Shown here piece after piece: positions 1,458-51,743 of a DNA stretch of 64,000 nucleotides. The notes under the pieces were generated by a model. That model saw only the letters and a list, made by a program, of their open reading frames with translations, was not told the DNA's origin and searched no databases. The DNA comes from Deltaproteobacteria bacterium (GTDB taxonomy: Bacteria; Myxococcota_A; UBA796; GCA-2862545): the NCBI GenBank assembly GCA_007693595.1, contig REDI01000031.1, positions 1 to 64,000 of the forward strand, in the 5' to 3' direction. Position 1 is the stretch's first letter. Each line of letters begins with the position of its first letter. Both the position numbers and the translations under genes were made by a program.

Positions 1458-3515
1458 ATGAACCGTCTCGCCTTGGCGCTCGCGCTTACCTGTGTCTCTT
1501 GCGCTCCGAAGGCCACCGAGCCCGAAGCCCCAACCGCCGACAAGCCCGATGGGCCCTACACAGAGGTCGAGCAGAGCGTGGCCGAGGCGATGAACCCTGA
1601 GGCCGATGCCTGTGAAGACTTCTACGAGTACGCTTGTGGGGGCTGGCTCGCGAACACCGAGCTGCCTTCCGATAAGACCCGTATGTCGCGTAGCTTCACC
1701 ACCATCCAGGATCAGAACCGCGCGATGCTCCGCGAGATCCTCGAGCAAGCTGCGGACGATCCGGGCGACGATCCCGATCTCAAGAAGGTCGGGGCCTTCT
1801 ACGGCGCCTGCATGGACATCGACGCCATCACTCAGGCGGGCCTCTCCCCCGTCCAGCCCTCCCTCGACGCCATCGCCCAGGCGAAGGACTTCAAGGCGCT
1901 GTGGGCTCTCGTGGCTGCCATGCACCTCGACGGCTCCGATCCGCTGTTCTCGATGGGGGTCGAGCCCGACTACAAGGATCCGACCTTCAACCTGCTGAAC
2001 ATCTGGCAGGGCGGCCTCGGCCTGCCCGATCGGTCCTTCTACCTCAACCAGGACAGCGCCGAGGTCAAGCAAGCCTATCAGGCGCACCTCGCGGCCATGC
2101 TCGAAGCCTCGGGCGTTGCCCCTGAGCTGGCCGGTGCGCAGGCGGAGCGCGTCGTGGCCTTCGAGACAGGTCTGGCCGAGGTCTCGTGGCCCCGGGCGGA
2201 GCTTCGTGACGCCGAGAAGACCTACAATCCGACCTCCGTCGCCGAGCTCGACAAGCTCACGCCCGCGCTGTCGTGGTCCGTGTTTCTCAAAGAGCTCGGT
2301 TACCCCGAGATCGAGAACACCAACGTCAACACCCCCTCCTTCTTCGAGGGCCTCTCGCCCCTGCTGCAAGAGACCGATCTCGACACCCTCAAGGCCTACC
2401 TGCAGCTTCGGGTCCTCAACAGCGCGGCGCCTTACCTCAGCCCCGAACTCGACTCGCTGCACTTCAGCTTCTATGGCACCGTGCTGTCGGGTCAGCAGGA
2501 ACAAGAGGATCGCTGGAAGCGCTGCGTGGGTCGAACGGAGTCGGCCATGGGCGAGGTCCTGGGCAAGGTCTACGTCGAGCGAGCCTTCCCGGGGGACAGC
2601 AAGGCCATCGCCCTCGACATGATCAGGCGGGTCGAGGGAGCCTTCGAGTCCGGCATGGCCGAGCTCGACTGGATGGACGACGCCACCCGTGCGGTCGCTA
2701 TCGAGAAGAGTCAGGCCATCACCAACAAGATCGGCTACCCCGACAAGTGGCGCGACTACTCTCCGCTCGTGGTCGAGCCCGGCGCGCATTTCCGAAACGT
2801 CGAGGCGGCCAAGCGCTTCGAGGCGCGGTTCTGGCTCGATCAAGCAGGGAAGGACGTCGACCGCGACCTCTGGTACATGTCCCCGCAGATGGTCAACGCC
2901 TACTACAACCCCTTGGCAAACGAGATCGCCTTTCCCGCCGGCATCCTTCAGCCGCCCTTCTTCAGTCGCGAGTTCCCACAGGCCATGAACTACGGTGCCA
3001 TGGGCATGGTCATGGGGCACGAGGTCAGCCACGGCTTCGACGACTCCGGGCGCAAGTTCAGCCCCACGGGCGCCCTTACGGAGTGGTGGCCGCCCGAGGT
3101 CGCGGAGCGCTTCGAGGAGCGCGCCTCTTGCGTCGAAGAGCAGTACAACGCCTACGAGGTCCAACCCGGCCTCTTCGTCGACGGCAAGCTCACCCTCGGC
3201 GAGAACATCGCTGATCTCGGTGGCATGAAGCAGTCCTTCCGCGCCTATCGAACGTGGGTCGAGGAGCACGGCGCCGAGCCCGAGATCGCGGGCTTGACCC
3301 CCGAGCAGCTCTTCTTCGTCGCCTACGCCCAGTCGTGGTGCTCCATCTACACCCCCGAAGCCGAGAAGGTGCAGGTCCGCTCCGATCCGCACAGCCCCTC
3401 GCGCTTCCGGGTAAACGGTCCGTTGCGCAACCTGCCCTACTTCGGCGAGGCCTTCGGCTGTGAGCGCGGCGCGCCGCTCTTCCCGGAGGCCGACGAGATC
3501 TGCGTGATCTGGTAA
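1458..3515 (+). CDS. M13 family zinc metallopeptidase (neprilysin/PepO-like), lipoprotein
   Basis: 685 residues. The ATG at 1458 follows GGAGG by 7 bases; an in-frame GTG at 1407 lacks a site. The first 16 residues form a signal peptide ending near VSC, a borderline lipobox, so the enzyme is probably anchored on the envelope. Catalytic signatures of M13 are present: HEVSH at about residues 521-525 (zinc ligands and general base), GENIADLGG near 581 (third ligand Glu), NAYYNP upstream for substrate binding, and the conserved C-terminal end in CVIW. The family cleaves small peptides on the N side of hydrophobic residues. The length matches PepO and neprilysin ectodomains. Function in this organism is unknown; peptide turnover in the periplasm or outside the cell is likely. 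Confidence 0.92.
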   Translation: MNRLALALALTCVSCAPKATEPEAPTADKPDGPYTEVEQSVAEAMNPEADACEDFYEYACGGWLANTELPSDKTRMSRSFTTIQDQNRAMLREILEQAADDPGDDPDLKKVGAFYGACMDIDAITQAGLSPVQPSLDAIAQAKDFKALWALVAAMHLDGSDPLFSMGVEPDYKDPTFNLLNIWQGGLGLPDRSFYLNQDSAEVKQAYQAHLAAMLEASGVAPELAGAQAERVVAFETGLAEVSWPRAELRDAEKTYNPTSVAELDKLTPALSWSVFLKELGYPEIENTNVNTPSFFEGLSPLLQETDLDTLKAYLQLRVLNSAAPYLSPELDSLHFSFYGTVLSGQQEQEDRWKRCVGRTESAMGEVLGKVYVERAFPGDSKAIALDMIRRVEGAFESGMAELDWMDDATRAVAIEKSQAITNKIGYPDKWRDYSPLVVEPGAHFRNVEAAKRFEARFWLDQAGKDVDRDLWYMSPQMVNAYYNPLANEIAFPAGILQPPFFSREFPQAMNYGAMGMVMGHEVSHGFDDSGRKFSPTGALTEWWPPEVAERFEERASCVEEQYNAYEVQPGLFVDGKLTLGENIADLGGMKQSFRAYRTWVEEHGAEPEIAGLTPEQLFFVAYAQSWCSIYTPEAEKVQVRSDPHSPSRFRVNGPLRNLPYFGEAFGCERGAPLFPEADEICVIW

Positions 3516-3585
3516 CGATGCCTTGGCTCCGCGGAGGCCCATGGGTTGGGGGGGCGGGGACCCGCGCTCTGGGGGCCTCAGTGCT

Positions 3586-3984
3586 TCAGGGGTCGGGAAC
3601 GAGCGTGATCGAGGCGCTGTTGACGCAGTAGCGCTTGCCGGTCGGCGGGGGGCCGTCTGGAAAGACGTGGCCCAGATGCCCCCCGCAGGCCCGACAGAGG
3701 ATCTCTTCGCGGATCATGCCATGGGAACGGTCGATCTGGACCTCGATGACATCGTCGCCGAGGTCATCGTAGAAGCTGGGCCACCCGCAGCCTGATGCGT
3801 ACTTGGTCTCGGATCGGAAGAGCGGCGTGTCGCATCCGGCGCAATGGTAGGTGCCCGCGGTCTGGGTCTGCCAGTATTCCCCGGTGAAGGCGCGCTCCGT
3901 CCCTGCCTCGCGCAGGATGTGGAACTGGTGTTCGGTGAGCTGGGCGCGCCAGAGTGCCTCCGACTTCTGGACGGTACGAGCCAT
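3586..3984 (-). CDS. msrB: Peptide-methionine (R)-S-oxide reductase MsrB
   Basis: 132 residues; AGGAGG lies 4 bases before the ATG. It reduces the R epimer of methionine sulfoxide in proteins. Visible are the two zinc-binding pairs (C48-x2-C51 and C97-x2-C100), the GCGWPSF substrate motif and the catalytic Cys120 in RYCVNS. The length is standard for a stand-alone cytoplasmic MsrB; no MsrA domain is fused and none is adjacent. It is monocistronic, convergent with the M13 peptidase gene and divergent from alkC. Confidence 0.96.
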   Translation of the reverse strand: MARTVQKSEALWRAQLTEHQFHILREAGTERAFTGEYWQTQTAGTYHCAGCDTPLFRSETKYASGCGWPSFYDDLGDDVIEVQIDRSHGMIREEILCRACGGHLGHVFPDGPPPTGKRYCVNSASITLVPDP

Positions 3985-4130
3985 GGTTCCTCCTTGACGC
4001 GTGTCATAGCCCGACGGTGCGCGGACGCGCAGCGCGAGCCTGTGGGATCAGGGTGGAGAGGATACAGGTCGGTTCTCGTGGTCAGCCGCCGACCGCGCCC
4101 CGCGCCTTGGAAGGCGGGTCTGGAGCCCCA

Positions 4131-5246
4131 ATGCCCGAGCCCTTTAAAGATCGGATCAACGCTCGGAGCGTCCGTCGCCTCGCGGCGGACTTGGCGCGAA
4201 CTCTACGCTCCTTCCAAGCCGATGACTTCGTGACGTCGGCCTGTGAGGGGCTGGACGTGCTCGAGCTGAAGGGTCGGGTCGACCACGTCGCGGATCAGCT
4301 CCGAGCGAATCTCCCCACAGATTGGGGCGACGCGGTGGAGGCGCTCATCGCGGCCTCCGGTGAGCCGCTCCCCAATGCACAGCGGGTCGCGGGTCGGATG
4401 GAGCTGTGGCCGGTCCTCACGGTCGTCGAGCGTCATGGGCTGCACGACCCCGAGCGCTCCCTCGCGGCGCTCCGGAGCCTCACGCGTCGCTTCTCGGCTG
4501 AGTTCGCGATCCGTCCCTACTTGTTACATCACCCTGAGCGGACCTGGACGGCGCTTCAGGCCTGGACCACCGATCCTTGTCTGCACGTCCGGCGGCTCTG
4601 TTCCGAAGGGAGCCGTCCTCGGTTGCCCTGGGCCTCGTCACTGCGTGCGTCCATCGAGGATCCCGGCCGTGGACTTCGCTTGATCGAGCGGCTCAAGGAC
4701 GACCGGGAGCCCTACGTGCGTCGATCGGTCGCGAATCACCTCAACGATGTGTGTAAAGATCATCCTGAGCGCGCGCTGAAGGTCGCGGAGGGGTGGTTGA
4801 AGGAGGCTCCCTCGGTCCGCCGCCGGCTAGTGCGTCACGGGGTTCGCACGCTGCTTAAGGCTGGTGAACCTAGGGCGCTGGCCCTGTTCGGCTTCGATCC
4901 CCCCGAGGTCGCTGTCTCAGGCGCCCGCGCCGATCCTGCGCTCCTGCGGATCGGGGCCTCCACCACCCTTCGCCTCGCCGTGCGCTCCTGCGCTGCGATC
5001 GATCAGCCTCTCCGGATCGACTGGATCGTGCATGGCCCTGGACTGAGGAGGCGCACGCGTCGTGTGGTTCGAGGCCCGGGGGGTACCCTGGAGCCAGGGG
5101 AGCTGTGGAGCATCGAGTACCGCTTGCCGATGGCGCCCACCACCACGCGGGCGGTCCGTCCGGGCGAGCATGTGATCGAGGTGCAGATCAACGGGGTTAT
5201 CCTGTCGGAGATCCGCCTGACGATGCTGCCGACCCTGGAGGCCTGA
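4131..5246 (+). CDS. alkC: AlkC-type DNA alkylation repair glycosylase
   Basis: 371 residues from the ATG at 4131, with GGAG 5 bases upstream; longer in-frame extensions have no ribosome site. The N-terminal MPEPFKDRIN segment and helical HEAT-like repeats (to about residue 270) with a RLIERLKDD...YVRRSVANHLND block match AlkC/AlkD glycosylases, which excise N3-alkylated purines without flipping the base. The last ~95 residues are beta-rich and resemble the Ig-like domain specific to AlkC, ending in a PGEHVIEVQING strand. The stop codon overlaps the next ATG by one base (TGATG), so the downstream AlbA_2 protein is translationally coupled. The family is solid; the choice of AlkC over AlkD rests on the Ig-like tail. 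Confidence 0.85.
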   Translation: MPEPFKDRINARSVRRLAADLARTLRSFQADDFVTSACEGLDVLELKGRVDHVADQLRANLPTDWGDAVEALIAASGEPLPNAQRVAGRMELWPVLTVVERHGLHDPERSLAALRSLTRRFSAEFAIRPYLLHHPERTWTALQAWTTDPCLHVRRLCSEGSRPRLPWASSLRASIEDPGRGLRLIERLKDDREPYVRRSVANHLNDVCKDHPERALKVAEGWLKEAPSVRRRLVRHGVRTLLKAGEPRALALFGFDPPEVAVSGARADPALLRIGASTTLRLAVRSCAAIDQPLRIDWIVHGPGLRRRTRRVVRGPGGTLEPGELWSIEYRLPMAPTTTRAVRPGEHVIEVQINGVILSEIRLTMLPTLEA

Positions 5247-6220
5247 TGGCTTGGGGACACACCTGGACCGAGCAGATGCTCGACGACCTCGAGCCCGATG
5301 AGCACTCCTATCAGGAGTTCAAGGCCTCGCCCTTTATGGTCACCGACGACCATGAGATCGCACCCGGCTTTCTCTTTCGGTTGTCCAAGCAGGTCAGCGC
5401 CTTCGCGAACGGCCACGGGGGCCGACTCTTCATCGGCATCGACGACCAGGGGCGGATCGATGGGGGGGTTCCTCGCGATCTCAAGGGTGGGGGCGTGCGG
5501 GAGTGGCTCGAAGACGTGGTGCCGGGCTCGGTCGATCCACCCCTGCGCGCCTTCAACGTCTTCGAGGTCCCCTGGCCAGGCCCCGGGGTGCCGACCAGCC
5601 TGCGCCGGGGCTGCGCGGTCTACGTCGTCGAGATCCAGCCCAGCCACGACGCACCCCACCAGGCTCAGGACTATCGCTACTACCTACGAATAGCGGGAAA
5701 GTCCCGCCCGATGAGCCACCTCCACCTCGAAGACATCAGTCGTCGGACCCGCACCCCACGGGTCCGGGTCGGTCGGCTCGCGCCGTTCGGCGAGCCCGAG
5801 CTCGTCCTCGACGACCCGCGAGGACCCAAGGTTCAGCTTCAGTTTCAGGTCTTCCTCCTCAACGAGGGGCGGGTCATGGCGCAGCACTGCGGTGGCGAGA
5901 TCGTCGTGCCACGCCCCCTCGTCAACAAGCGGCTTCGGCAGAGGCTTCGCGACGAAGGGGTGGATCTTACCCAGACCCCCGGTGAGCTGCACGCCTTTCG
6001 CTACCATCCAAGGCCCCTCTTCCCGGGTCAGGAGCTACCGTTGACCTCCTTCTGGGTCGGGATCCACGAGAATAATCTCGAGGCGGTTCGATCGGGTGAG
6101 TCGCGGATCGGCTGGCGGGTCTACGCCGACGACGCGCCTGCGACCGAGGGCGACCGGGCGCTCCACAGCTTCGGGGTCGTCAAGGATGCCCTGCGCTGGG
6201 TTGAGTCCAAGCTGCGTTAG
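5246..6220 (+). CDS. AlbA_2 / Schlafen-type putative nucleic-acid-binding protein
   Basis: 324 residues starting inside the alkC stop codon. The N-terminal ~150 residues carry the AlbA_2 (divergent AAA-4) signature: an acidic YQEFKAS strand, then SAFANGHGGRLFIGIDDQG and a basic RYYLRIAGKS strand. The rest (about 160-324) is beta-rich without a family I recognise. AlbA_2 domains occur in Schlafen proteins, which bind or cleave nucleic acid, and in putative transcription regulators; no nuclease motif is clear to me. Strict coupling to alkC suggests a role with the alkylation-repair glycosylase, but that is inference. It lacks the winged-helix tail of many AlbA_2 regulators. Confidence 0.8.
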   Translation: MAWGHTWTEQMLDDLEPDEHSYQEFKASPFMVTDDHEIAPGFLFRLSKQVSAFANGHGGRLFIGIDDQGRIDGGVPRDLKGGGVREWLEDVVPGSVDPPLRAFNVFEVPWPGPGVPTSLRRGCAVYVVEIQPSHDAPHQAQDYRYYLRIAGKSRPMSHLHLEDISRRTRTPRVRVGRLAPFGEPELVLDDPRGPKVQLQFQVFLLNEGRVMAQHCGGEIVVPRPLVNKRLRQRLRDEGVDLTQTPGELHAFRYHPRPLFPGQELPLTSFWVGIHENNLEAVRSGESRIGWRVYADDAPATEGDRALHSFGVVKDALRWVESKLR

Positions 6221-6247: not shown

Positions 6248-8788
6248 TCAGGGGGACTCGAACACGCCGGACTCCAGCGCGGCGCGGCGCAGGGCGCCGG
6301 CCATCTCGCGGGCGGTGGACCACCGATCGTCGGGCTCGACCTCGAGTGCCTTCATCACGACGTCGGCGATGGGGGCGGGAACGTCGGGAGCACGGGTCGA
6401 GAGGGGCTCGGGATCGTGCACCAGTCGAATCATGGCGAGCTGCTGGACGCTCTGGCCCGAGAAGGGGATGTCGCCCGTCAGGAGCTCGTACAGCACCAGG
6501 CCCAAGGCGTAGAGGTCTACGCGCCCATCGAGGGGGGCGCGCTCTACCTGCTCGGGCGCGAGGTAGCGCGGCGTGCCGAGGATGGGAGCGCGCGGATCCA
6601 GGGTATCTTCAACGCGGATCGCGACGCCGAAGTCGAGCACCTTGGGTAGTTCGGCCTCGGGCTGCTCACAGAGGAAGATGTTGGCGGGCTTGATGTCGCG
6701 GTGTACCACGCCGTGCTCGTGGGCGGCATCGAGGCCGTCGAGGACGGCGAGCGCTACCTTGACCACGTCCTGGAGCGGCATCTTGCGGACGCCCTGGATC
6801 CGGTCGGCCAGCTCCTCGCCGTACAGGCGCTCCATCACCATCCACGCGTCTTGATCGGCGGCTCCATAGTCGAAGACGCGGATCGTGTTGGGGTGCTCGA
6901 TGCGCGAGGCGATGCGGGCTTCAAAGTAGAAGCGCTGGACGTTGGATGGATCGGCGGCGATCTCGGGGAGGAGCATCTTGACGGCGAGCTCCTCGCCGCT
7001 CTGGGGGTCGGTGGCGCTGTAGACCACCCCCATGCCTCCGCGGGCGAGCTCTCCGCTGATCCGGTAGGGCCCAACCTGGGTCGGTGGGGTGTCGCGGGGC
7101 ATGGCGGGCAGCGAGATCCAGTGGAAGGGCTGTCCCTCAGCGACGATCAAGGGCAGGTCCTTGCTGACGCGTAGCGCGGAGAGGTCGGGATCTTCGGCGG
7201 CAGCCTTGGCGATCGCCACCCGGCCTGCCCCCACTCGGCGAACGAGCGCCATGCTGCGCTCGACGTCTGGGCCCAGGGGAAGCTCGCGCTCCGCCGTTCG
7301 GAAGACCGCGACCTGGGCGTGATCGAGGAGCATCGAGAGCTCGGGGGCGGGCAGCAGGCGCCAGGCTGCGAGCATCGCGGTCGGCAGATCCCGCCATAGC
7401 GTCAGCACGCAGCCGTCGGAGGCGAAAGACCAGATCGGTCCCTGATCCCCGCGCTCCAGATCGAAGGTCGCGTCGGAGTCGTGGGTCAAGCCATGCAGCA
7501 GGACCTCCGCCTCGTCGGCCCCGTCGATGAGCAGGATCGCCCCTTCAAGGTGCCTGAGCTCCGGAGGGCTGGGCAAGGCGGTGGTGTCGACGAGCTCACG
7601 GGCGCGCGGGTGCTCGAGCAGGCGGCTGAGGGGAAGGGCGTCCTCGGGGCGATAACGGCGCTCGAGCTGGACGAAGGAGGCTTCTTGGGAGCGGTTGTGC
7701 AAGTGGACGTCGACCTGGCCGGGGCCGACCCGAAGGAGTGCGGGTGAGAGCTTGTTATCGCGGAGCTCGGCCGCCGCGGCTCGGGCGCGTAGGCCCTCGC
7801 GGACCTCGAGAGAGGCGCGGGCCGAGCCGTCGAAGGTGCGCAGGAGGTAGGCCCCGGACTCCAGGTTCAGGGTCAGTCGGACCTCTTCGCCAGCGGGCAG
7901 GAGGACCCGAGCGAGCACCTGGGGCGTGTGGACAGGGCTGTTGATGCAGTCGAGGGGGACCTCGATCTGGCGGAGATCCTCGGCGGGCTTGAAGGAGATC
8001 TCGAGGCTGTCTGGCAGAGTGCCGTCGTAGCGGATCCGGCAGGACTCGCAGTGGGGCTCGACCTCGCTCAGATCGAGCGCCTCGAGGCGCACCTTGGGCC
8101 CATGACAAGAGGGGCAGAGCAGGTCGTAACGGAGCTGTAGAGCTCCCTTGGCGCAGGCGCCGAGGAAGGCATCGAGGACCTCGGCTTCGGGGACTTGCCA
8201 GGCGCGGGCCAGGGCGAGGGGCCGCATCCGGTCGACCTCGCGCGGATCGCCATGGTCGACGAGCGCGGCGAGCTTCTCCCCGAGGGGCACCCCCTCGAAA
8301 CGGGCGAGGGTGGCGGGACGCGGGGCGGGCTGCTGGTCCTGGCTGAGCCGCTTGGCCGTGGCGTCGATGGTGCGGTTGAGCATGGGCCGAACCGAGGTGG
8401 TGGCCTCGAACCAGATGGCGGGCAGCAGGAGGGGGTGCACCGGGTAGAGATCGACCCGATAGTCGAGGTGCACACCGTCTTCGCGTGGGTCGAGGACGAT
8501 GGTGGCCACCAGGTGATCCAGCGGCCCGCCCTGGAAGCGTCGCACGCTGCGGAACGTGCGCGGCGCCTCGAGCTGGAAGGGCTCGTCTTCCCAGCGCAGG
8601 CGGATCCCCATGCGCCGCACCTCACCGTAGCGGCGCGGCCGACCTTGTTCGTCGATCTCCTGGCGGAAGTAGAAGCCGAGGCCTGCCTCGCGGTTGAAGC
8701 GGTCGGTGTCCGAGAAGATGCGCCAAGCCGCCCAGAGGTCGTGGGTAGGAAGAACTCGGGTCAGGTGGATGGTGAAGGGCTTGGGCAT
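6248..8788 (-). CDS. Ser/Thr protein kinase with SRPBCC, DUF5939-like and degenerate cyclase-like regions
   Basis: 846 residues from the ATG at 8788; a GTG at 8824 would add 12 residues, and neither start has a clear Shine-Dalgarno. Residues ~1-160 look like an SRPBCC (START-like) domain. Residues ~165-400 resemble DUF5939, usually found in front of class III nucleotide cyclases, with two CxxC-type pairs (CPSC, CESC). Residues ~415-560 align by eye with a cyclase catalytic domain but lack the metal-binding aspartates. Residues ~572-846 are a full Hanks kinase: GELARGGMG loop, AVK lysine, HRDIKPAN, DFG and APE. No transmembrane helix is seen, so it is a soluble kinase. It lies 79 bases downstream of topA on the same strand and may be read with it. 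Kinase identity is certain; the upstream domain names are pattern-based. Confidence 0.85.
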   Translation of the reverse strand: MPKPFTIHLTRVLPTHDLWAAWRIFSDTDRFNREAGLGFYFRQEIDEQGRPRRYGEVRRMGIRLRWEDEPFQLEAPRTFRSVRRFQGGPLDHLVATIVLDPREDGVHLDYRVDLYPVHPLLLPAIWFEATTSVRPMLNRTIDATAKRLSQDQQPAPRPATLARFEGVPLGEKLAALVDHGDPREVDRMRPLALARAWQVPEAEVLDAFLGACAKGALQLRYDLLCPSCHGPKVRLEALDLSEVEPHCESCRIRYDGTLPDSLEISFKPAEDLRQIEVPLDCINSPVHTPQVLARVLLPAGEEVRLTLNLESGAYLLRTFDGSARASLEVREGLRARAAAAELRDNKLSPALLRVGPGQVDVHLHNRSQEASFVQLERRYRPEDALPLSRLLEHPRARELVDTTALPSPPELRHLEGAILLIDGADEAEVLLHGLTHDSDATFDLERGDQGPIWSFASDGCVLTLWRDLPTAMLAAWRLLPAPELSMLLDHAQVAVFRTAERELPLGPDVERSMALVRRVGAGRVAIAKAAAEDPDLSALRVSKDLPLIVAEGQPFHWISLPAMPRDTPPTQVGPYRISGELARGGMGVVYSATDPQSGEELAVKMLLPEIAADPSNVQRFYFEARIASRIEHPNTIRVFDYGAADQDAWMVMERLYGEELADRIQGVRKMPLQDVVKVALAVLDGLDAAHEHGVVHRDIKPANIFLCEQPEAELPKVLDFGVAIRVEDTLDPRAPILGTPRYLAPEQVERAPLDGRVDLYALGLVLYELLTGDIPFSGQSVQQLAMIRLVHDPEPLSTRAPDVPAPIADVVMKALEVEPDDRWSTAREMAGALRRAALESGVFESP

Positions 8789-24082: not shown

Positions 24083-25782
24083 GCTCATCGACGGCCTCCA
24101 GCAGCAGCAGCGGGCGGCGGTTCCATCTCCGCCGACTGCTCGGGGCTGGCGCGTTCGGCGAGGTCTACCTAGCCGAGATGATCTCGTCGGGGGACTTTCG
24201 CCGGCGGGTGGCGATCAAGCTCCTCCATGCGGATGTCGCCCAGAACCGAGGAGCGGCGCAACGCATGCGCGACGAGGCTCGCATCCTGGGTCGGCTCTCC
24301 CACCGGAACATCGTCTCGGTCCTCGATCTCATTAAGTTGGAGGATCGCTGGGCGGTCATCATGGATTACGTGCCGGGTGCGGACCTGGAGCAGGTCCTGG
24401 AGCGCTGCGTCAAGCTTCAGCGGGCTACCCCACTCGGCGCGGTCTTCGAGGTAGGCGCTGCGGTGGCGCGCGCGCTGCACGCGGCCTGGTCTACGGACGA
24501 CGGCGAGGGCAACCCGCTCAAGGTGGTCCACCGCGACATCAAGCCGAGCAACATCCGCCTCACGCCCGACGGCGAGGTCAAGGTGCTCGACTTCGGCGTC
24601 GCCCGAGTCGAGATGGACACCCGCGAGGCTGCGACCCGCGAGGTCGGCTGGATCGGCACCGAGCGCTACATGGCGCCCGAGCGCATCATGATGCTCGGCG
24701 ACACGCCCGCGGGTGATGTCTATGCGCTGGGAGCGAGTCTGGTGGAGCTGATCTTGGGCGCTCCACTCGGGCGGACCCCGGTGCTCCCCGACAAGCATCG
24801 GCCCCTGATCGATGAGGCGATGTCCAAGATCGAGGTCCGGCTGAACGGCCACCCCGCGACGGCTGAGGTGATCGAGACGCTTCGCTCCACGCTGCACGAC
24901 GAGCCAGAGCGCCGGGCCTCCGCAGCGGAGCTGGCGAAGTCGTTTCCGCGTCTCGCGCGAAGGCTCGGGGGGGGCTCGCTGGCGGAGTTCGCCGGTGAGC
25001 TCGTTCCACCTCTCATCGAGCAGGGCTCCTCCGAGGTGGTCGATCAGGTGCTCAGCGAAGAGCCGACCACGGCCGGGGCCATGTCCACCTTGGCCTTGCC
25101 CGACGAAGTGGGCCCTCCAGACGCCGAGGATCAACCTGCCAAGAGGGGGGCGCTGCTCGGGCTGGTCCTGGGCGGTGGGGCAGCGGTCGCCGTGGCGGGA
25201 GGCGGGGTACTGGTCCTCCTCTTAGCGGTGATCGTCGGCCTGTGGTTGTCCTTCTCGGTCGCCCCGATCGAGCCCTCGGTCGAGCCCTCCGAGATCGAGC
25301 GTGTCGAGGAGCCCCCGGTGCTCACCGAGCCTGCATCTCCCCAAGAGCTCTCGGGTTCCCCAGAGCCTCCGGGTTCCGCCTCCGAAGGATCGGACGAGGT
25401 GGACGAGGCCGGTGGGGCGAGCGAGCCTGTCGACGAGCGGGAGTCGGCTCCCGCGACCGAAGCGGAGGGTGCTCCGGTCGCCTCGCCCTCCAAGCCGACG
25501 CCCGCCAAGGTCCTCTCCTCGCCGCCCGAGATCCCCGCCGATGCGCCGCGGGTCCGGTCGGCCAAGGTCCTGTTCGCCGAGGCCTCGTCCCTCTCGGTGA
25601 CCTGCGGCGATCGCCACGGATCGGGCAGCTCCTCGGTCGCCTTGCGCAACGCCCCCGCTGGGCCCTGCGTGGTCCGTGCGACCTGGCTCGGCGAGGCCGT
25701 CGAGACCACCATCCAGCTCGAGGAGCCCACCGTGTTCACCTGCGCGATGCAGGGCGAGGAGATGTCGTGCGCGTCGTCGTGA
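24079..25782 (+). CDS. Transmembrane Ser/Thr protein kinase
   Basis: 567 residues from a GTG that overlaps the upstream lipoprotein stop. Residues ~15-300 are a Hanks kinase: GAGAFGEVY, VAIKLL lysine, VVHRDIKPSN, VLDFGVA and YMAPE. A long hydrophobic segment (about residues 358-392, Gly/Ala/Val-rich) crosses the membrane. It is followed by a Pro/Glu/Ser-rich linker of ~100 residues and a small C-terminal domain (about 500-567) with three cysteines (SVTCGDRHG, GPCVV, TCAMQG) outside the cytoplasm. The arrangement is that of PknB-like receptors, with lipoprotein and secreted partners encoded on each side. Confidence 0.9.
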   Translation: MSSSTASSSSSGRRFHLRRLLGAGAFGEVYLAEMISSGDFRRRVAIKLLHADVAQNRGAAQRMRDEARILGRLSHRNIVSVLDLIKLEDRWAVIMDYVPGADLEQVLERCVKLQRATPLGAVFEVGAAVARALHAAWSTDDGEGNPLKVVHRDIKPSNIRLTPDGEVKVLDFGVARVEMDTREAATREVGWIGTERYMAPERIMMLGDTPAGDVYALGASLVELILGAPLGRTPVLPDKHRPLIDEAMSKIEVRLNGHPATAEVIETLRSTLHDEPERRASAAELAKSFPRLARRLGGGSLAEFAGELVPPLIEQGSSEVVDQVLSEEPTTAGAMSTLALPDEVGPPDAEDQPAKRGALLGLVLGGGAAVAVAGGGVLVLLLAVIVGLWLSFSVAPIEPSVEPSEIERVEEPPVLTEPASPQELSGSPEPPGSASEGSDEVDEAGGASEPVDERESAPATEAEGAPVASPSKPTPAKVLSSPPEIPADAPRVRSAKVLFAEASSLSVTCGDRHGSGSSSVALRNAPAGPCVVRATWLGEAVETTIQLEEPTVFTCAMQGEEMSCASS

Positions 25783-45965: not shown

Positions 45966-46669
45966 GCGGCGACGTCATGCTGCGATCGGGCCCGGTCCAC
46001 ATCCAGGCAAAGGGGCTCAGCAAGGTCTACCACAAGGGCGGCCAGGCCATCGAAGTGCTCCGTGAGGTCGACCTCGAGGTGGGGCCGGGGGATCGGGTCT
46101 CGATCGTCGGTCCCTCGGGTTGTGGAAAGTCCACCTTTCTGCACTTAGTCGGCCTGCTCGACACGCCCACGAGCGGTCGACTCCTGCTCGATGAGCTCGA
46201 CGTCACTCGGGTAGGGAACCGCGGTCTTCACCGCTTCCGAAACTTCCGGGTAGGCTTCATCTTCCAGGCCCACAACCTCCTTCCGGAGCACACGGCGCTT
46301 AGCAACGTCATGATCCCGGTACAGCTCGCGGGCGCCTCCAAGGTGACCGCCCAGAAGCGGGCGACCGCCTTGCTCGAGATGGTCGGTCTGGGTCCCCGTC
46401 TCCAGCACAAGCCGGGTGAGCTCTCGGGGGGCGAGCAGCAGCGGGTCGCGATCGCGCGGGCGCTGGTGATGGGGCCTGGGCTGGTGCTGGCCGACGAGCC
46501 TACGGGCAACCTCGATCCCGTGACCTCCGACAGCGTCTTCGAGGTCTTGCTCGACCTCAACCGGCAGCTCGGCAGCACCCTGGTCATGGTCACCCACTCC
46601 TTGGAGCTCGCGCGCCGCTTTCCGCGTCAGCTCCAGCTCGTCCGTGGCCAGTTCGAGGACCTGTCGTGA
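45962..46669 (+). CDS. lolD: Lipoprotein-releasing ABC transporter ATPase LolD
   Basis: 235 residues, overlapping lolC by four bases (ATGA) and bamA by four (GTGA). Walker A GPSGCGKST, Q-loop FIFQAHNLLPEH, signature LSGGEQQRVAIA, Walker B LVLADEPTGNLD, and H-loop VTHS. It drives lipoprotein release from the inner membrane, which the many lipoproteins in this window need. Confidence 0.95.
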   Translation: MSGDVMLRSGPVHIQAKGLSKVYHKGGQAIEVLREVDLEVGPGDRVSIVGPSGCGKSTFLHLVGLLDTPTSGRLLLDELDVTRVGNRGLHRFRNFRVGFIFQAHNLLPEHTALSNVMIPVQLAGASKVTAQKRATALLEMVGLGPRLQHKPGELSGGEQQRVAIARALVMGPGLVLADEPTGNLDPVTSDSVFEVLLDLNRQLGSTLVMVTHSLELARRFPRQLQLVRGQFEDLS

Positions 46670-49164
46670 TCCGCTGGATGCTGCTCGCGATCGTCTTGGC
46701 CTTGGGGGTGGGGATCTCGACGGCTCCCGCCTGGGGGAGGCCTCTGTTGGCCGATGCCGATGGGGCGGTCTCAAAGGTGATCATCGAGGGTAATCGCCGC
46801 ATCGAGGAGCCCACGATCAAGGCGGCGGTGGGGGTCCACTTCGGCCAGGTCTTGAGCCGAAACCGAGTGCGATCCATCATCAAGTCCGTGCACAACACGG
46901 GCTTCTTCGACGACGTGCAGGTCTTTGTCGCCCCCGACGAAGAGGCGGGCCGAGGCCTCATTCTCACCATACGGGTCATCGAGAAGCCCGCCGTGCGCGA
47001 TGTTCAGGTGCTCGGCACCAAGAAGGTCAAGGAAGAAGACGTGCGCGAGGCGATGAGCCTGCGATCCTTCAACGTGCTCAACACGGCCGACATCAACCGC
47101 AACGTCAAGCGGATCCGCGATCTCTACATCGAGAAGGGGTACTACCTGGTCGAGGTCGAGCCTGAGATCGACCCTATCTCCGACGATCAGGTCGACGTGA
47201 CCTTCCGCATCACCGAGAACCGCAAGGTGGTGGTCCAGAAGGTCGAGTTTGTGGGGAACGATCAGGTGCCTCGTCGAAAGCTCAAGCGGGGCCTCGAGGT
47301 CAAGGAAGGCGGGATCCTGCCCTGGTTGGGATCCTCGGGCACCTTCGACCGCGCCAAGCTCGACACCGATCGGCTGAGGATCCAGAGCATCTTGTACGAG
47401 CTCGGCCATCTCGACGCCGAGGTCGATCCTCCCAAGGTCTTCTTGTCGCCCGACAAGCGCTTTATCTATATCAGCTATAAGATCGAGGAAGGACCCAGGT
47501 ACGATCAGGGTAAGTTTGCGATCGTCGGGGACTTTGTCGACGAAGAGGGCCTCACGCCCGACAACGTGCGTCGCATCGCCGAGGGCACCCCGGTGCTCGT
47601 CCTGCAAGAAGAGCTCTGGCGCAAGGCCAACGACAAGCGGTCGAGACTTCGCTTGCTCCGACTGAAGGCGGCGGCCTTCGAGCAGGGGGAGCCCTTCCGC
47701 TACAGCTTGATCCGAACCGGCTTCGGAGGTGGCATCGCCGAGAACATCGAGGCTTTCTACCAGGATCAGGGCTATGCCTTCGCCACGGTCGAGGCCATCC
47801 CCTACAGCAACCCGCGCACCGGCCAGGCGGACGTAGTCTTTCGGGTCGAGAAGGGGAGCAAGTACCGGATCGGCCTCATCGATGTGACCGGCAACGACGC
47901 GACCATCGACACGGTGGTTCGGCGCGAGATGCAGGTCGACGAGGGCGATCTCTACCGCGGAGCGCGCATTCAGGCCTCGCGTGCTCGGGTTGGGCGACTC
48001 GGCTTCTTTGAGGATGTAAGCATCGACACGCCGCGCGGCTCGGCGCCCGATGTGCTCGACCTCAAGGTGAACGTCCGGGAGCGCCCCACGGGCAGCTTCA
48101 GCATGGGGATGGGCTTCTCGAGCTTCGAGCAGTTCGTGCTCACCGGGAGCATCAGTAAGGCCAACTTCCTGGGCCGTGGCTACATGCTCAACGCGATGAT
48201 CAACTGGTCGGCGATCCGTCGTCAGTGGAACGTCGGGTTCTACGACCCTTACTTCTTGAACTCCCGCTGGACGCTCTCGGTCAATGGCTACTCGATCAAC
48301 CAGCAGTTTCAGCTCAATGAGTATATGCGCGGCGGCTCGGTCGAGATCGGTCGATACCTGGACCGCGCCGACGACTTCCGACTGGCCCTGCAGTATACGG
48401 TCGCCGACGTAGGGCTCATCTCGCTCGATCCCTACCGAAGCCAGCTCCTCGGCGGCGATCTCTACCGCAACGGGCTGACCTCGACGCTGGGCCTCAACCT
48501 CATGATGGACCGGCGGAACAACCGCATGATGGGGACGAAGGGCACCTTTACCAGCATCAGCACCAACCTCACGGGCGGCTTCCGCACCGACAAAGACACC
48601 GTGCTGCGCCTGCTCGGGGGGCGCTTCAACTTCGCCGAGGTTCGTGCGAACTTTCGTGCCTATTACCCGCTCATTCCCTCGGAGTCCGAGGACCTCATGG
48701 TCTTCCGCTTCAACACCACGCTGGGCTGGGTCCAGAGCACGGATGGTCGAGTCGTGCCGTTCATCCACCGCTATCGTGTCGGAGGCATCATGTCCGTGCG
48801 CGGCTACAACTGGTTCAGCCTGGGCCCTGCGCTGCGGGGTACAGGCACCGATGACCCGCTGCGAGGCGATGTGCCGATCCAGGCGGGTGGCACGCAGCAG
48901 TGGATCAACAACATCGAGATCGAGAACCCGATCGTGCGCGGAGCGGGCATCCGAGGGGTGGTCTTCTTCGACGCGGGCAACGCCTTTGGGGATCCCTGGG
49001 GCCAGGGCTTCATCAACCCCGCGGGGCTTCAGTATGCCATCGGCGCGGGGATCCGTTGGAACTCACCGATGGGTCTGCTACGCTTCGAGTATGGCATTCC
49101 GCTCAACCCTCGCGAGGGGGATCAGCGGGGGGTCTTTGACTTCGGCATGGGCCAGTTCTTCTAG
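46666..49164 (+). CDS. bamA: Outer-membrane assembly factor BamA
   Basis: 832 residues from a GTG. A signal peptide ends near APAWG-RP; five POTRA domains follow (about 35-440, each with GN/GT-x-V/R turns such as VIIEGNRRIEE and VQVLGTKKVKEED), then the Omp85 barrel (about 450-832) with the loop 6 motif SVRGYNW and a C-terminal Phe. BamA inserts barrel proteins, so it should handle the large barrel protein at 30128-33349 and others here. It sits between lolD and a kinase gene, only 17 bases ahead of the latter. Confidence 0.95.
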   Translation: MIRWMLLAIVLALGVGISTAPAWGRPLLADADGAVSKVIIEGNRRIEEPTIKAAVGVHFGQVLSRNRVRSIIKSVHNTGFFDDVQVFVAPDEEAGRGLILTIRVIEKPAVRDVQVLGTKKVKEEDVREAMSLRSFNVLNTADINRNVKRIRDLYIEKGYYLVEVEPEIDPISDDQVDVTFRITENRKVVVQKVEFVGNDQVPRRKLKRGLEVKEGGILPWLGSSGTFDRAKLDTDRLRIQSILYELGHLDAEVDPPKVFLSPDKRFIYISYKIEEGPRYDQGKFAIVGDFVDEEGLTPDNVRRIAEGTPVLVLQEELWRKANDKRSRLRLLRLKAAAFEQGEPFRYSLIRTGFGGGIAENIEAFYQDQGYAFATVEAIPYSNPRTGQADVVFRVEKGSKYRIGLIDVTGNDATIDTVVRREMQVDEGDLYRGARIQASRARVGRLGFFEDVSIDTPRGSAPDVLDLKVNVRERPTGSFSMGMGFSSFEQFVLTGSISKANFLGRGYMLNAMINWSAIRRQWNVGFYDPYFLNSRWTLSVNGYSINQQFQLNEYMRGGSVEIGRYLDRADDFRLALQYTVADVGLISLDPYRSQLLGGDLYRNGLTSTLGLNLMMDRRNNRMMGTKGTFTSISTNLTGGFRTDKDTVLRLLGGRFNFAEVRANFRAYYPLIPSESEDLMVFRFNTTLGWVQSTDGRVVPFIHRYRVGGIMSVRGYNWFSLGPALRGTGTDDPLRGDVPIQAGGTQQWINNIEIENPIVRGAGIRGVVFFDAGNAFGDPWGQGFINPAGLQYAIGAGIRWNSPMGLLRFEYGIPLNPREGDQRGVFDFGMGQFF

Positions 49165-49181
49165 CGCCCTTGGAGCCAGCC

Positions 49182-51149
49182 TTGCTTGAGCCTGGTGATC
49201 ATCTCGGAGATTGGGAGATCGAGAGCCTGCTCGGTGAGGGGGGCATGGGCGCGGTCTATCGTGCGCGGAACATGGTGCTCGGCGACGTCTACGCCGCAGT
49301 TAAGACTACGTTGCCCCGAGATTTTCAGCACGCCCGCGAGCGCTTCGTGCGCGAGATCAAGGCCCTGCTCCGGCTGCATCACTCCGCCGTGGTGCGGGTT
49401 CAGGGCTTCGGCGAAGATCGGGAGCGCGGGATCCTCTGGTTCGCCATGGATCTGGTCGAGGGCCACCCCCTCGACGCGTGGATCGAAGGGGGCGTCGCCT
49501 TTCCGGTCAAGCACGCGCTTCGCCTCTATGCGAGCCTGGCCGAGGGGCTGGCGCACGCCCATGAGCGAGGGGTCGCGCACCGCGACCTCAAGCCCGCCAA
49601 CGTCATCGTGGGTCATGATGGTTTGCCCGTGATGGTCGACTTCGGGATCAGCGCGACGGAGGGTGACGATCGGCTGACGCGGACCGGGACGGTCATCGGC
49701 ACGCCGCAGTATATGCCCCCCGAGGCCCTCGAAGGCCAGCTCCCCGACCCCATGCTTGGGGACATCTACGCGCTGGGCCAGATGCTCATGGAGACTGTGG
49801 CGGGAAGTCCTGCTTTTCCGACCGACCCGCGTCTGACCTCCACCCAGAACGCCCTCCGGGTCATGCATCAGAAGGTCATGCGCGATGATCTCGACCCAGG
49901 TGAGTCCTTCCCCGAGCCCCTCCGACAGATTATTCGCGATGCGACGCACGTCGATCCCACGCATCGACTCCAGTCCGCGGCGCTGCTCGCGCAGCGACTT
50001 CGTGACCTCTGCGATCGCCCGACCGAAGAGCTCGCGGTGGCGGCCCGGGCCGGGGGCATGGGGGCCGAGGTCGAACCCAATGGGCCGGCGATCCCACGTG
50101 ATCCGGGGCATGCGTTGGTCGCCGGCGGTACCGGCCCGGTGGGCGGCGCAGCGAGCACCGTGGATCTCGACGGCGCGGGCCTCGCACGGACCTCGACCCA
50201 GACCCTCGACCCCGCCACCAAGGTCAAGCGGAAGCGGCCGATGGCGTGGTTGCTCGGGCTCGCTGGCGGAAGCCTGGTGGCGTTGGTTGCGATCATGGGG
50301 GTGCTGTTGCTTTTTGGGGTGGGCATCGTTTGGCTGGCTCTCTCGTCCAGCCCATCCCAGCCTCCCGTGGTCGCCGACACCAGCGAGCCGGCCGCGCCCG
50401 CGAAGCCGCCCGAGCCGTCGAGCTCCTCCACGGCGCCGAGCCCTGAGCCCTCCAAGACGGAGCCAGACGACCTGGAGCCTCAGACCGGCAAGTCTCAGAC
50501 CCGAGTTCCGAGTCCGCCTCCCTCCAGATCGGGCCAGCCTGCGCCCGATGGGCAAGCCTCCTCGCCCAAGACCGGGCCCACGGACGCGCCATCGCCCCCC
50601 GAGCCGGTCGAGCCTCCGACGACTGAGCCCGATCCCCCCCCGAGCGACGACGGCGTGTCGGTCGTGACCTCCCCCGACCCGACGTCTCCAGCCCCGCCGG
50701 TCGAAGAGCCGGAACCGGAACCGGAACCGGAGCCGGAGCCGCCCAAGGTCGCGCCCTTTTCGCCGAACTGGTCCGAGGTCATCGGCATTCGCCGTGGCAT
50801 GAACGACCGCGAGCTCGATCGGCTCTTGGGAACCAGCAGCGACGGCACCTCGAACCACTGCGGTCGGGGCGAGAACCCGCGCGCCTACCTCTCGGGAGGC
50901 GTGCTGGTCTGTCGGGCGATGTTCGGAGGCGCGCGAACCGTGGTGATCAGCCGATCCGCCAAGGCCCAGCTCGCCCCGAAGAGCTCAGACCCGCTCGTCA
51001 GCCTGCTCGGCATGAGTCCCGAGCAGGTCGAGGCTACCATCGGTCCGCCCCAGAACCGCATCGGAGCCAACCGCTTCCACTACCAGCGCCGCGAGGTCCT
51101 GCTGGAGTTCCAACGCGGGCGGCTCGACCTCATCGTCGTCGCGCTCTGA
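49182..51149 (+). CDS. Transmembrane Ser/Thr kinase with BamE-like C-terminal domain, inserted between bamA and skp
   Basis: 655 residues from a TTG at 49182 with GGAG 6 bases upstream (the frame is open to 49170). Residues ~8-285 form a Hanks kinase: GEGGMGAVY, AVKTTL lysine, VAHRDLKPAN, VDFGISA and YMPPEA. A hydrophobic helix (about 354-383) is followed by a ~145-residue Pro/Glu-rich periplasmic linker, including an EP6 repeat. The last ~130 residues (about 525-655) contain two units of the form 'GM...E...LLG/IGPP...' with a Y/V strand pair, the second (LGMSPEQVEATIGPP...FHYQRREVLLEFQRGRL) closely recalling BamE/SmpA. Placement inside the bamA-skp-lpx operon makes an outer-membrane-assembly sensor plausible; that role is inference. 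Confidence 0.88.
   Translation: MLEPGDHLGDWEIESLLGEGGMGAVYRARNMVLGDVYAAVKTTLPRDFQHARERFVREIKALLRLHHSAVVRVQGFGEDRERGILWFAMDLVEGHPLDAWIEGGVAFPVKHALRLYASLAEGLAHAHERGVAHRDLKPANVIVGHDGLPVMVDFGISATEGDDRLTRTGTVIGTPQYMPPEALEGQLPDPMLGDIYALGQMLMETVAGSPAFPTDPRLTSTQNALRVMHQKVMRDDLDPGESFPEPLRQIIRDATHVDPTHRLQSAALLAQRLRDLCDRPTEELAVAARAGGMGAEVEPNGPAIPRDPGHALVAGGTGPVGGAASTVDLDGAGLARTSTQTLDPATKVKRKRPMAWLLGLAGGSLVALVAIMGVLLLFGVGIVWLALSSSPSQPPVVADTSEPAAPAKPPEPSSSSTAPSPEPSKTEPDDLEPQTGKSQTRVPSPPPSRSGQPAPDGQASSPKTGPTDAPSPPEPVEPPTTEPDPPPSDDGVSVVTSPDPTSPAPPVEEPEPEPEPEPEPPKVAPFSPNWSEVIGIRRGMNDRELDRLLGTSSDGTSNHCGRGENPRAYLSGGVLVCRAMFGGARTVVISRSAKAQLAPKSSDPLVSLLGMSPEQVEATIGPPQNRIGANRFHYQRREVLLEFQRGRLDLIVVAL
50706..50741 (+). 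repeat. Six Glu-Pro codon repeats in the kinase linker
   Basis: GAA/GAG-CCG repeated six times in the periplasmic linker. EP repeats give a stiff extended spacer, as in TonB, and here would project the C-terminal domain across the peptidoglycan. Confidence 0.85.
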
Positions 51150-51248: not shown

Positions 51249-51743
51249 ATGTCTCGCTCGTTGCTCATCGCTGCCCTGCTGTTTATCTCGACCCCCGCGC
51301 TCGCCGGCAAGATCGCGATCGTCGACTTTCAGCGCGCCCTCGCCGAGACCAAAGACGGCCAAGCCGCCCAGAAGCGACTCGAAGATGGCATGTCCTCCCG
51401 CCGAGCCCAGCTCGAGAACCAGCGTCAGGATCTCGAGAAGCTCTACAAGGACTACGAGTCGCGTAAACTGATCCTCAACGACGAGGCACGCCGGGCCGCG
51501 GAGCAAGACATCGTGAGCCGGCAGCGCAAGCTCGAGGCCGATGCGTATCGCTTCGAGCAAGAGATGCAGCAGGAGTACGTCGAGATCGTCAGCGACCTCG
51601 ACGCCCGCATGCGCGAACTCTCAGCGAAGATCGCCAAAGAAAAGGGCTATGAGCTCGTCCTTGATCAGACGGCGGTGGTCTACTCCGGGGGCGAGACCGT
51701 CGACATGACCGCCGATCTCATCCGTCGGTACAACGGACAGTAG
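51249..51743 (+). CDS. skp: Periplasmic chaperone Skp (OmpH)
   Basis: 164 residues from the ATG at 51249 with GGAGG 4 bases upstream; earlier in-frame starts would spoil the signal peptide (ending TPALA-GK). The short beta strand IAIVDFQRALAET and the two long charged coiled-coil helices (about 40-125) are the jellyfish-like Skp fold. It carries unfolded outer-membrane proteins to BamA. A 99-base space to the kinase gene holds no clear promoter. Confidence 0.92.
   Translation: MSRSLLIAALLFISTPALAGKIAIVDFQRALAETKDGQAAQKRLEDGMSSRRAQLENQRQDLEKLYKDYESRKLILNDEARRAAEQDIVSRQRKLEADAYRFEQEMQQEYVEIVSDLDARMRELSAKIAKEKGYELVLDQTAVVYSGGETVDMTADLIRRYNGQ

Follow-up and report, generated by a model that had tools for sequence, protein, structure and literature searches.

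A single-pass Ser/Thr kinase with a predicted tandem BLIP-like periplasmic tip, encoded between bamA and skp in a deltaproteobacterial genome

The stretch of DNA that we analyzed (hereafter the window; 64,000 nucleotides) carries a kinase gene set between bamA and skp, with all three genes on the same strand. The features of this locus are as follows:

46666–49164, + strand: bamA, the 5′ neighbor of the kinase gene (PF07244 and PF01103, Omp85/POTRA)
49182–51149, + strand: gene for a single-pass Hanks Ser/Thr kinase of 655 aa, with a TTG start (open reading frame and translation)
49215–49994, + strand: kinase domain, residues 12–271, predicted cytoplasmic side (PF00069, E = 1.1e-40)
50274–50336, + strand: predicted single transmembrane helix, residues about 365–385, preceded by KVKRKR (positive-inside; hydropathy)
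50337–50759, + strand: Pro/Glu/Ser-rich linker, predicted periplasmic, 141 residues, 31% Pro (composition)
50760–50987, + strand: tip unit 1, helices followed by antiparallel strands (AlphaFold2 models of the window tip and its homologue; alignment)
50988–51146, + strand: tip unit 2, helices followed by three strands, with the motif GMSPEQVEATIGPP (AlphaFold2 model; weak PF04355 match)
51249–51743, + strand: skp/ompH, the 3′ neighbor (PF03938, OmpH, 2.2e-25)

The spacing is as the earlier sequence-only reading of this DNA had claimed, with 17 bases between the bamA stop (49164) and the kinase gene and 99 bases from its end to the skp start (51249). A GGAG lies at 49172–49175, 6 nt ahead of the TTG start, and an in-frame TTG at 49170 is also possible as an alternative start. 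The third-position G+C of the kinase gene is 0.819, similar to that of the neighboring genes. A search of the bamA–kinase gap for a sigma-70-like promoter, which is a weak test in this organism, found none, and the kinase is probably transcribed together with bamA.

By its fold (the PF00069 match) and its Lys, HRD and DFG motifs the protein is a Hanks-type Ser/Thr kinase, as had been proposed, with GEGGMG, VK, HRDLKPAN and DFG all located in the domain. The PASTA-kinase profile NF033483 also matches it (4.6e-51), though the match stops at residue 377. A PASTA kinase identity (PknB/Stk1) was rejected, with 174.5 bits scored against a cut-off of 450 and no PASTA domains found. The single membrane helix, with a hydropathy peak of 2.81 over 21 residues, and the long Pro/Glu linker ending in six EP pairs (50706–50741) are likewise all present as first described. 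From these features we infer a topology in which the kinase domain is cytoplasmic and the C-terminal tip periplasmic. The stalk is in principle long enough to reach the outer membrane, so that an outer-membrane or a periplasmic ligand is possible.

The tip itself, a domain of 129 residues, had been described as carrying two GM...E...GPP units that resemble BamE/SmpA. Unit 2 does hold a good copy (GMSPEQVEATIGPP), but unit 1 holds a partial one (GMNDRELDRLLGTSS) that lacks GPP. Alignment of the two units by hhalign places the motifs in the same register with E = 0.14, a value at which the repeat is not proven by sequence. The BamE profile PF04355 matches unit 2 over 25 residues with E = 0.033 and 14.4 bits, under the curated cut-off of 23.2 bits, and it gives no match to the homologue of the tip in the same-genus genome G001. 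We rejected a BamE identity for the tip on this sub-threshold profile score and because the domain is the C-terminal part of a membrane kinase of 655 residues rather than a small outer-membrane lipoprotein. Apart from this weak PF04355 match, searches of Pfam, NCBIfam and PDB sequences gave no sequence-level match. The sole real homologue found is the one in G001, at 43% identity; none was present in the other 56 relatives searched (from a set of 58), a pattern scan of the genome contigs recovered the same G001 contig alone, and a scan of 379 genomes of the phylum returned weak matches that added no convincing homologue. Four of these weak matches were examined (L077, L079, L081 and L082) and rejected, with no kinase in any of them. 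Unit 1 has two cysteines (C34 and C51 in domain numbering; 50859–50861 and 50910–50912) that are conserved in the homologue, and the pair is consistent with a possible disulphide outside the cytoplasm.

To place the tip at the level of fold, we predicted the structures of both the window and G001 tips with AlphaFold2, each model being built on the same two-sequence alignment of the window and G001 tips. The best models (pLDDT 74.5 and pTM 0.69 for the window; pLDDT 76.4 and pTM 0.72 for G001) both show two tandem alpha/beta units, each consisting of short helices and then antiparallel strands. The mean pLDDT of the five models was 74.5, 72.5, 53.5, 50.7 and 48.7 for the window tip, with two of five above 60, and 76.4, 58.6, 55.6, 49.7 and 41.4 for the G001 tip, with one of five above 60. 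In Foldseek searches against the PDB, where no tip match had an E-value below 0.001 and TM-scores of the main matches ranged from 0.4 to 0.56 by query length, the top match for both models was the DUF4309 protein YjgB (4ygt; E = 1.7e-3 for the window and 1.6e-3 for G001, probability 1.00). The C-terminal domain of TagH was matched by the G001 model (9a4o at 1.00 and 5bnd at 0.84) and by the window model (5bnd at 0.57), while BLIP-like proteins were matched weakly and by the G001 model only (4fr9 at 0.38 and 3gmx at 0.20). Further matches of the window tip were 4ifa, an extracellular protein with an SCP domain (0.95), and 9j9w, an antifungal effector (0.80). BamE (5wam) came 21st for the window tip, with E = 0.54 and probability 0.16, and was not among the 50 matches listed for the G001 tip.

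DUF4309, TagH, BLIP and BamE are all of one fold type, and TagH, whose C-terminal domain is extracellular, is a component of an exporter of cell-wall polymers. The likeness to BamE read from the sequence therefore touches the broad fold type but not the nearest relatives, which are DUF4309/YjgB and then TagH, and the predicted tip departs from BamE in being a double unit where BamE is a single one. BLIP is an enzyme inhibitor built as a tandem repeat of alpha/beta units (PMC8363833). The tip is most likely a tandem BLIP-like double unit, as modeled, with BamE the wrong relative and at most a distant single-unit cousin.

The kinase also has a family context. This genome, a draft of 97 contigs, gives 62 kinase-like matches and encodes about sixty protein kinases; two more of the kinase-like matches fall within the same 64 kb window (6284–7087 on the − strand and 24127–25536 on the + strand). 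In a kinase-domain tree the window kinase groups with that of G001 at 100/100, and other kinases of the same chassis lie nearby. These relatives have the kinase, the membrane helix and a proline-rich stretch in common, yet their C-terminal tips differ, with PEGA in L109 and several that have no Pfam name. This suggests that one kinase chassis has carried exchanged tips in this bacterial family, with the BLIP-like tip among them, while the window kinase together with its tip is restricted to one genus in our sample. In the G001 orthologue the linker is comparable (151 residues, 27% Pro); the gene, on contig C329, is unlinked to bamA, and genes other than skp follow it. This gene is probably split over two contigs (L120 and L122) at GEGGMG by what is likely an assembly break, and its N-terminal piece is probably the one at the end of contig C30, next to a gene placed divergently, a join that we treat as tentative because GEGGMG is common to many kinases of that genome.

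Taken together, we think it likely that the gene encodes a lineage-specific single-pass Ser/Thr sensor kinase with a tandem BLIP-like periplasmic tip on a Pro-rich stalk. The tip would probably bind a protein or other envelope ligand in the periplasm, and such binding, or clustering, would place kinase domains side by side, leading to trans-autophosphorylation and then to phosphorylation of cytoplasmic targets. We propose this order of events because other single-pass Hanks receptor kinases work in this way. A different use of the same tip is conceivable: it would bind an envelope ligand outside the BAM machinery, for example cell-wall material, a lipoprotein or a secreted enzyme, and would function less as a classical sensor than as an anchor or inhibitor. 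The fold does include the extracellular domain carried by the exporter component TagH. It also includes the enzyme inhibitor BLIP (PMC8363833), but the complete-looking kinase domain attached to the tip favors signaling, and we regard the anchor or inhibitor role as unlikely.

Whether the position beside bamA bears on function was assessed by comparing this junction among relatives. We searched for bamA in 94 genomes, with a match in 88, and examined the loci of 59 relatives in which bamA and downstream DNA were available. At none of the 59 does a kinase adjoin bamA, so that the bamA–kinase–skp order, and the presence of the kinase at this site, belong to this genome only within the sample searched. 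At 42 of the loci a recognizable skp follows bamA in the same orientation, and the DNA that separates them gives no kinase-domain match; at the other 17 skp was not recognized within the available downstream DNA, which is short in some. In G001, skp starts about ten bases past the bamA stop, again with no kinase between. Unrelated genes occupy the junction in some relatives, so it evidently tolerates insertions: the bamA–skp gap spans 3.8 kb in L018 (reverse strand, 2983–6192) and 4.1 kb in L029 (1579–5512), and in L021 and L022 (the latter reverse, 1523–2632) it holds an opposite-strand gene that reads like a cation antiporter. Because bamA and skp commonly adjoin, it is simpler to suppose that the kinase was inserted in the lineage of the window, and the kinase most likely moved into the junction recently, this direction of movement being the one that best fits the comparison. 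The tight 17-base junction could nevertheless reflect selection for co-expression, a point against the explanation that we favor.

A different Hanks kinase was seen near the same group of genes in four other genomes, directly 3′ of fabZ and in the bamA–skp–lpxD–fabZ direction:

L123, 862–1692, − strand: fabZ-adjoining Hanks kinase
L040, 3113–4531, + strand: fabZ-adjoining Hanks kinase
L046, 2189–3625, reverse strand: fabZ-adjoining Hanks kinase
L049, 3484–4743, reverse strand: fabZ-adjoining Hanks kinase

Three of these genomes (G025, G029 and G034) belong to one genus of family f6 and the fourth (G048) to family f4, and in G029 and G034 the kinase is followed by two more co-directional genes. 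Unlike the bamA–kinase–skp order of the window, this placement of a kinase by the lpx operon is recurrent.

These comparisons bear on the proposal that the kinase is a true sensor of outer-membrane assembly, whose tip binds BamA/BamD or unfolded porins while the kinase adjusts envelope synthesis, and whose gene order is functional. The short same-strand distance from bamA, the gap in which no sigma-70-like promoter was seen in that weak test, and a Pro-rich linker of 141 residues that could in principle cross the periplasm, with a comparable one in G001, all fit such a role, as does the fact that BamE is of the same broad fold type. However, the gene order occurs in one genome and at none of the 59 relatives' loci, the same-genus orthologue is unlinked to bamA, the closest folds are not BamE, and unrelated genes fill the same junction in other relatives. 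In addition, a six-frame search for PF04355, which was positive in the E. coli and Caulobacter controls, detected no match in this genome and the 59 relatives, and evidence for BamE as a BAM subunit was not found for the delta-proteobacteria in a published survey (PMC3359395). Our literature searches turned up no account of a kinase linked to bamA–skp. We therefore hold a sensor of outer-membrane assembly to be distinctly improbable: the case made for it from BamE-likeness and gene order did not hold up, and since the kinase adjoins bamA and skp in this genome only, it lacks comparative support. Its fuller form, in which the kinase uses a double BLIP/BamE-type domain on a periplasm-crossing stalk to monitor outer-membrane protein assembly, and was recruited to the bamA operon in this lineage so that sensing would be coupled with production, is very unlikely. 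That a misassembly joined the kinase to the bamA operon is hardly credible: the genome is a 97-contig draft and near-identical kinase motifs can confuse assembly, as the probable GEGGMG split of the G001 kinase illustrates, yet neither junction falls within the conserved kinase motifs, the frames are coherent and the third-position G+C matches that of the neighbors.

What stands from the sequence-only reading is that the kinase is a membrane protein and that its extracytoplasmic domain is, broadly, of the BLIP/BamE type. With the sensor kinase that we favor, a predicted tandem BLIP-like sensor tip on a bacterial Ser/Thr kinase is now documented, a pairing that we did not find in the literature searched, where absence is weak evidence. 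The same-chassis relatives, for their part, indicate that tips have been exchanged on a single kinase chassis in one bacterial family. An outer-membrane-assembly role cannot be assigned from likeness to a BamE motif or from one gene neighborhood; the protein has an unusual tip, yet its setting is ordinary for a kinase-rich genome.

Compared with known systems, the tip resembles BamE/SmpA (PF04355) in a weak GM..E....G.P motif match in unit 2, but BamE/SmpA is a single-unit lipoprotein and the tip a double unit on a kinase. BLIP and the BLIP-like proteins (3gmx and 4fr9) share its tandem alpha/beta units, but they are secreted and match weakly, through one model only. YjgB of Bacillus subtilis (4ygt) is the best structural match of both models, at 12–14% identity and with no sequence-level match, whereas the tip ends a membrane kinase. 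TagH is like the window kinase in carrying an extracytoplasmic domain on a membrane-bound, cytoplasmic nucleotide-using enzyme (TM-score 0.44–0.56 by query length), though that enzyme is the ATPase of a Gram-positive ABC exporter and not a kinase. Finally, while the window kinase differs from PknB/PASTA-type kinases in carrying no PASTA domains and in falling far under the PASTA-kinase cut-off, it shares with them, and with the eukaryotic-like single-pass Hanks receptor kinases of myxobacteria, the same plan of a cytoplasmic kinase, one membrane helix and an extracytoplasmic sensor.
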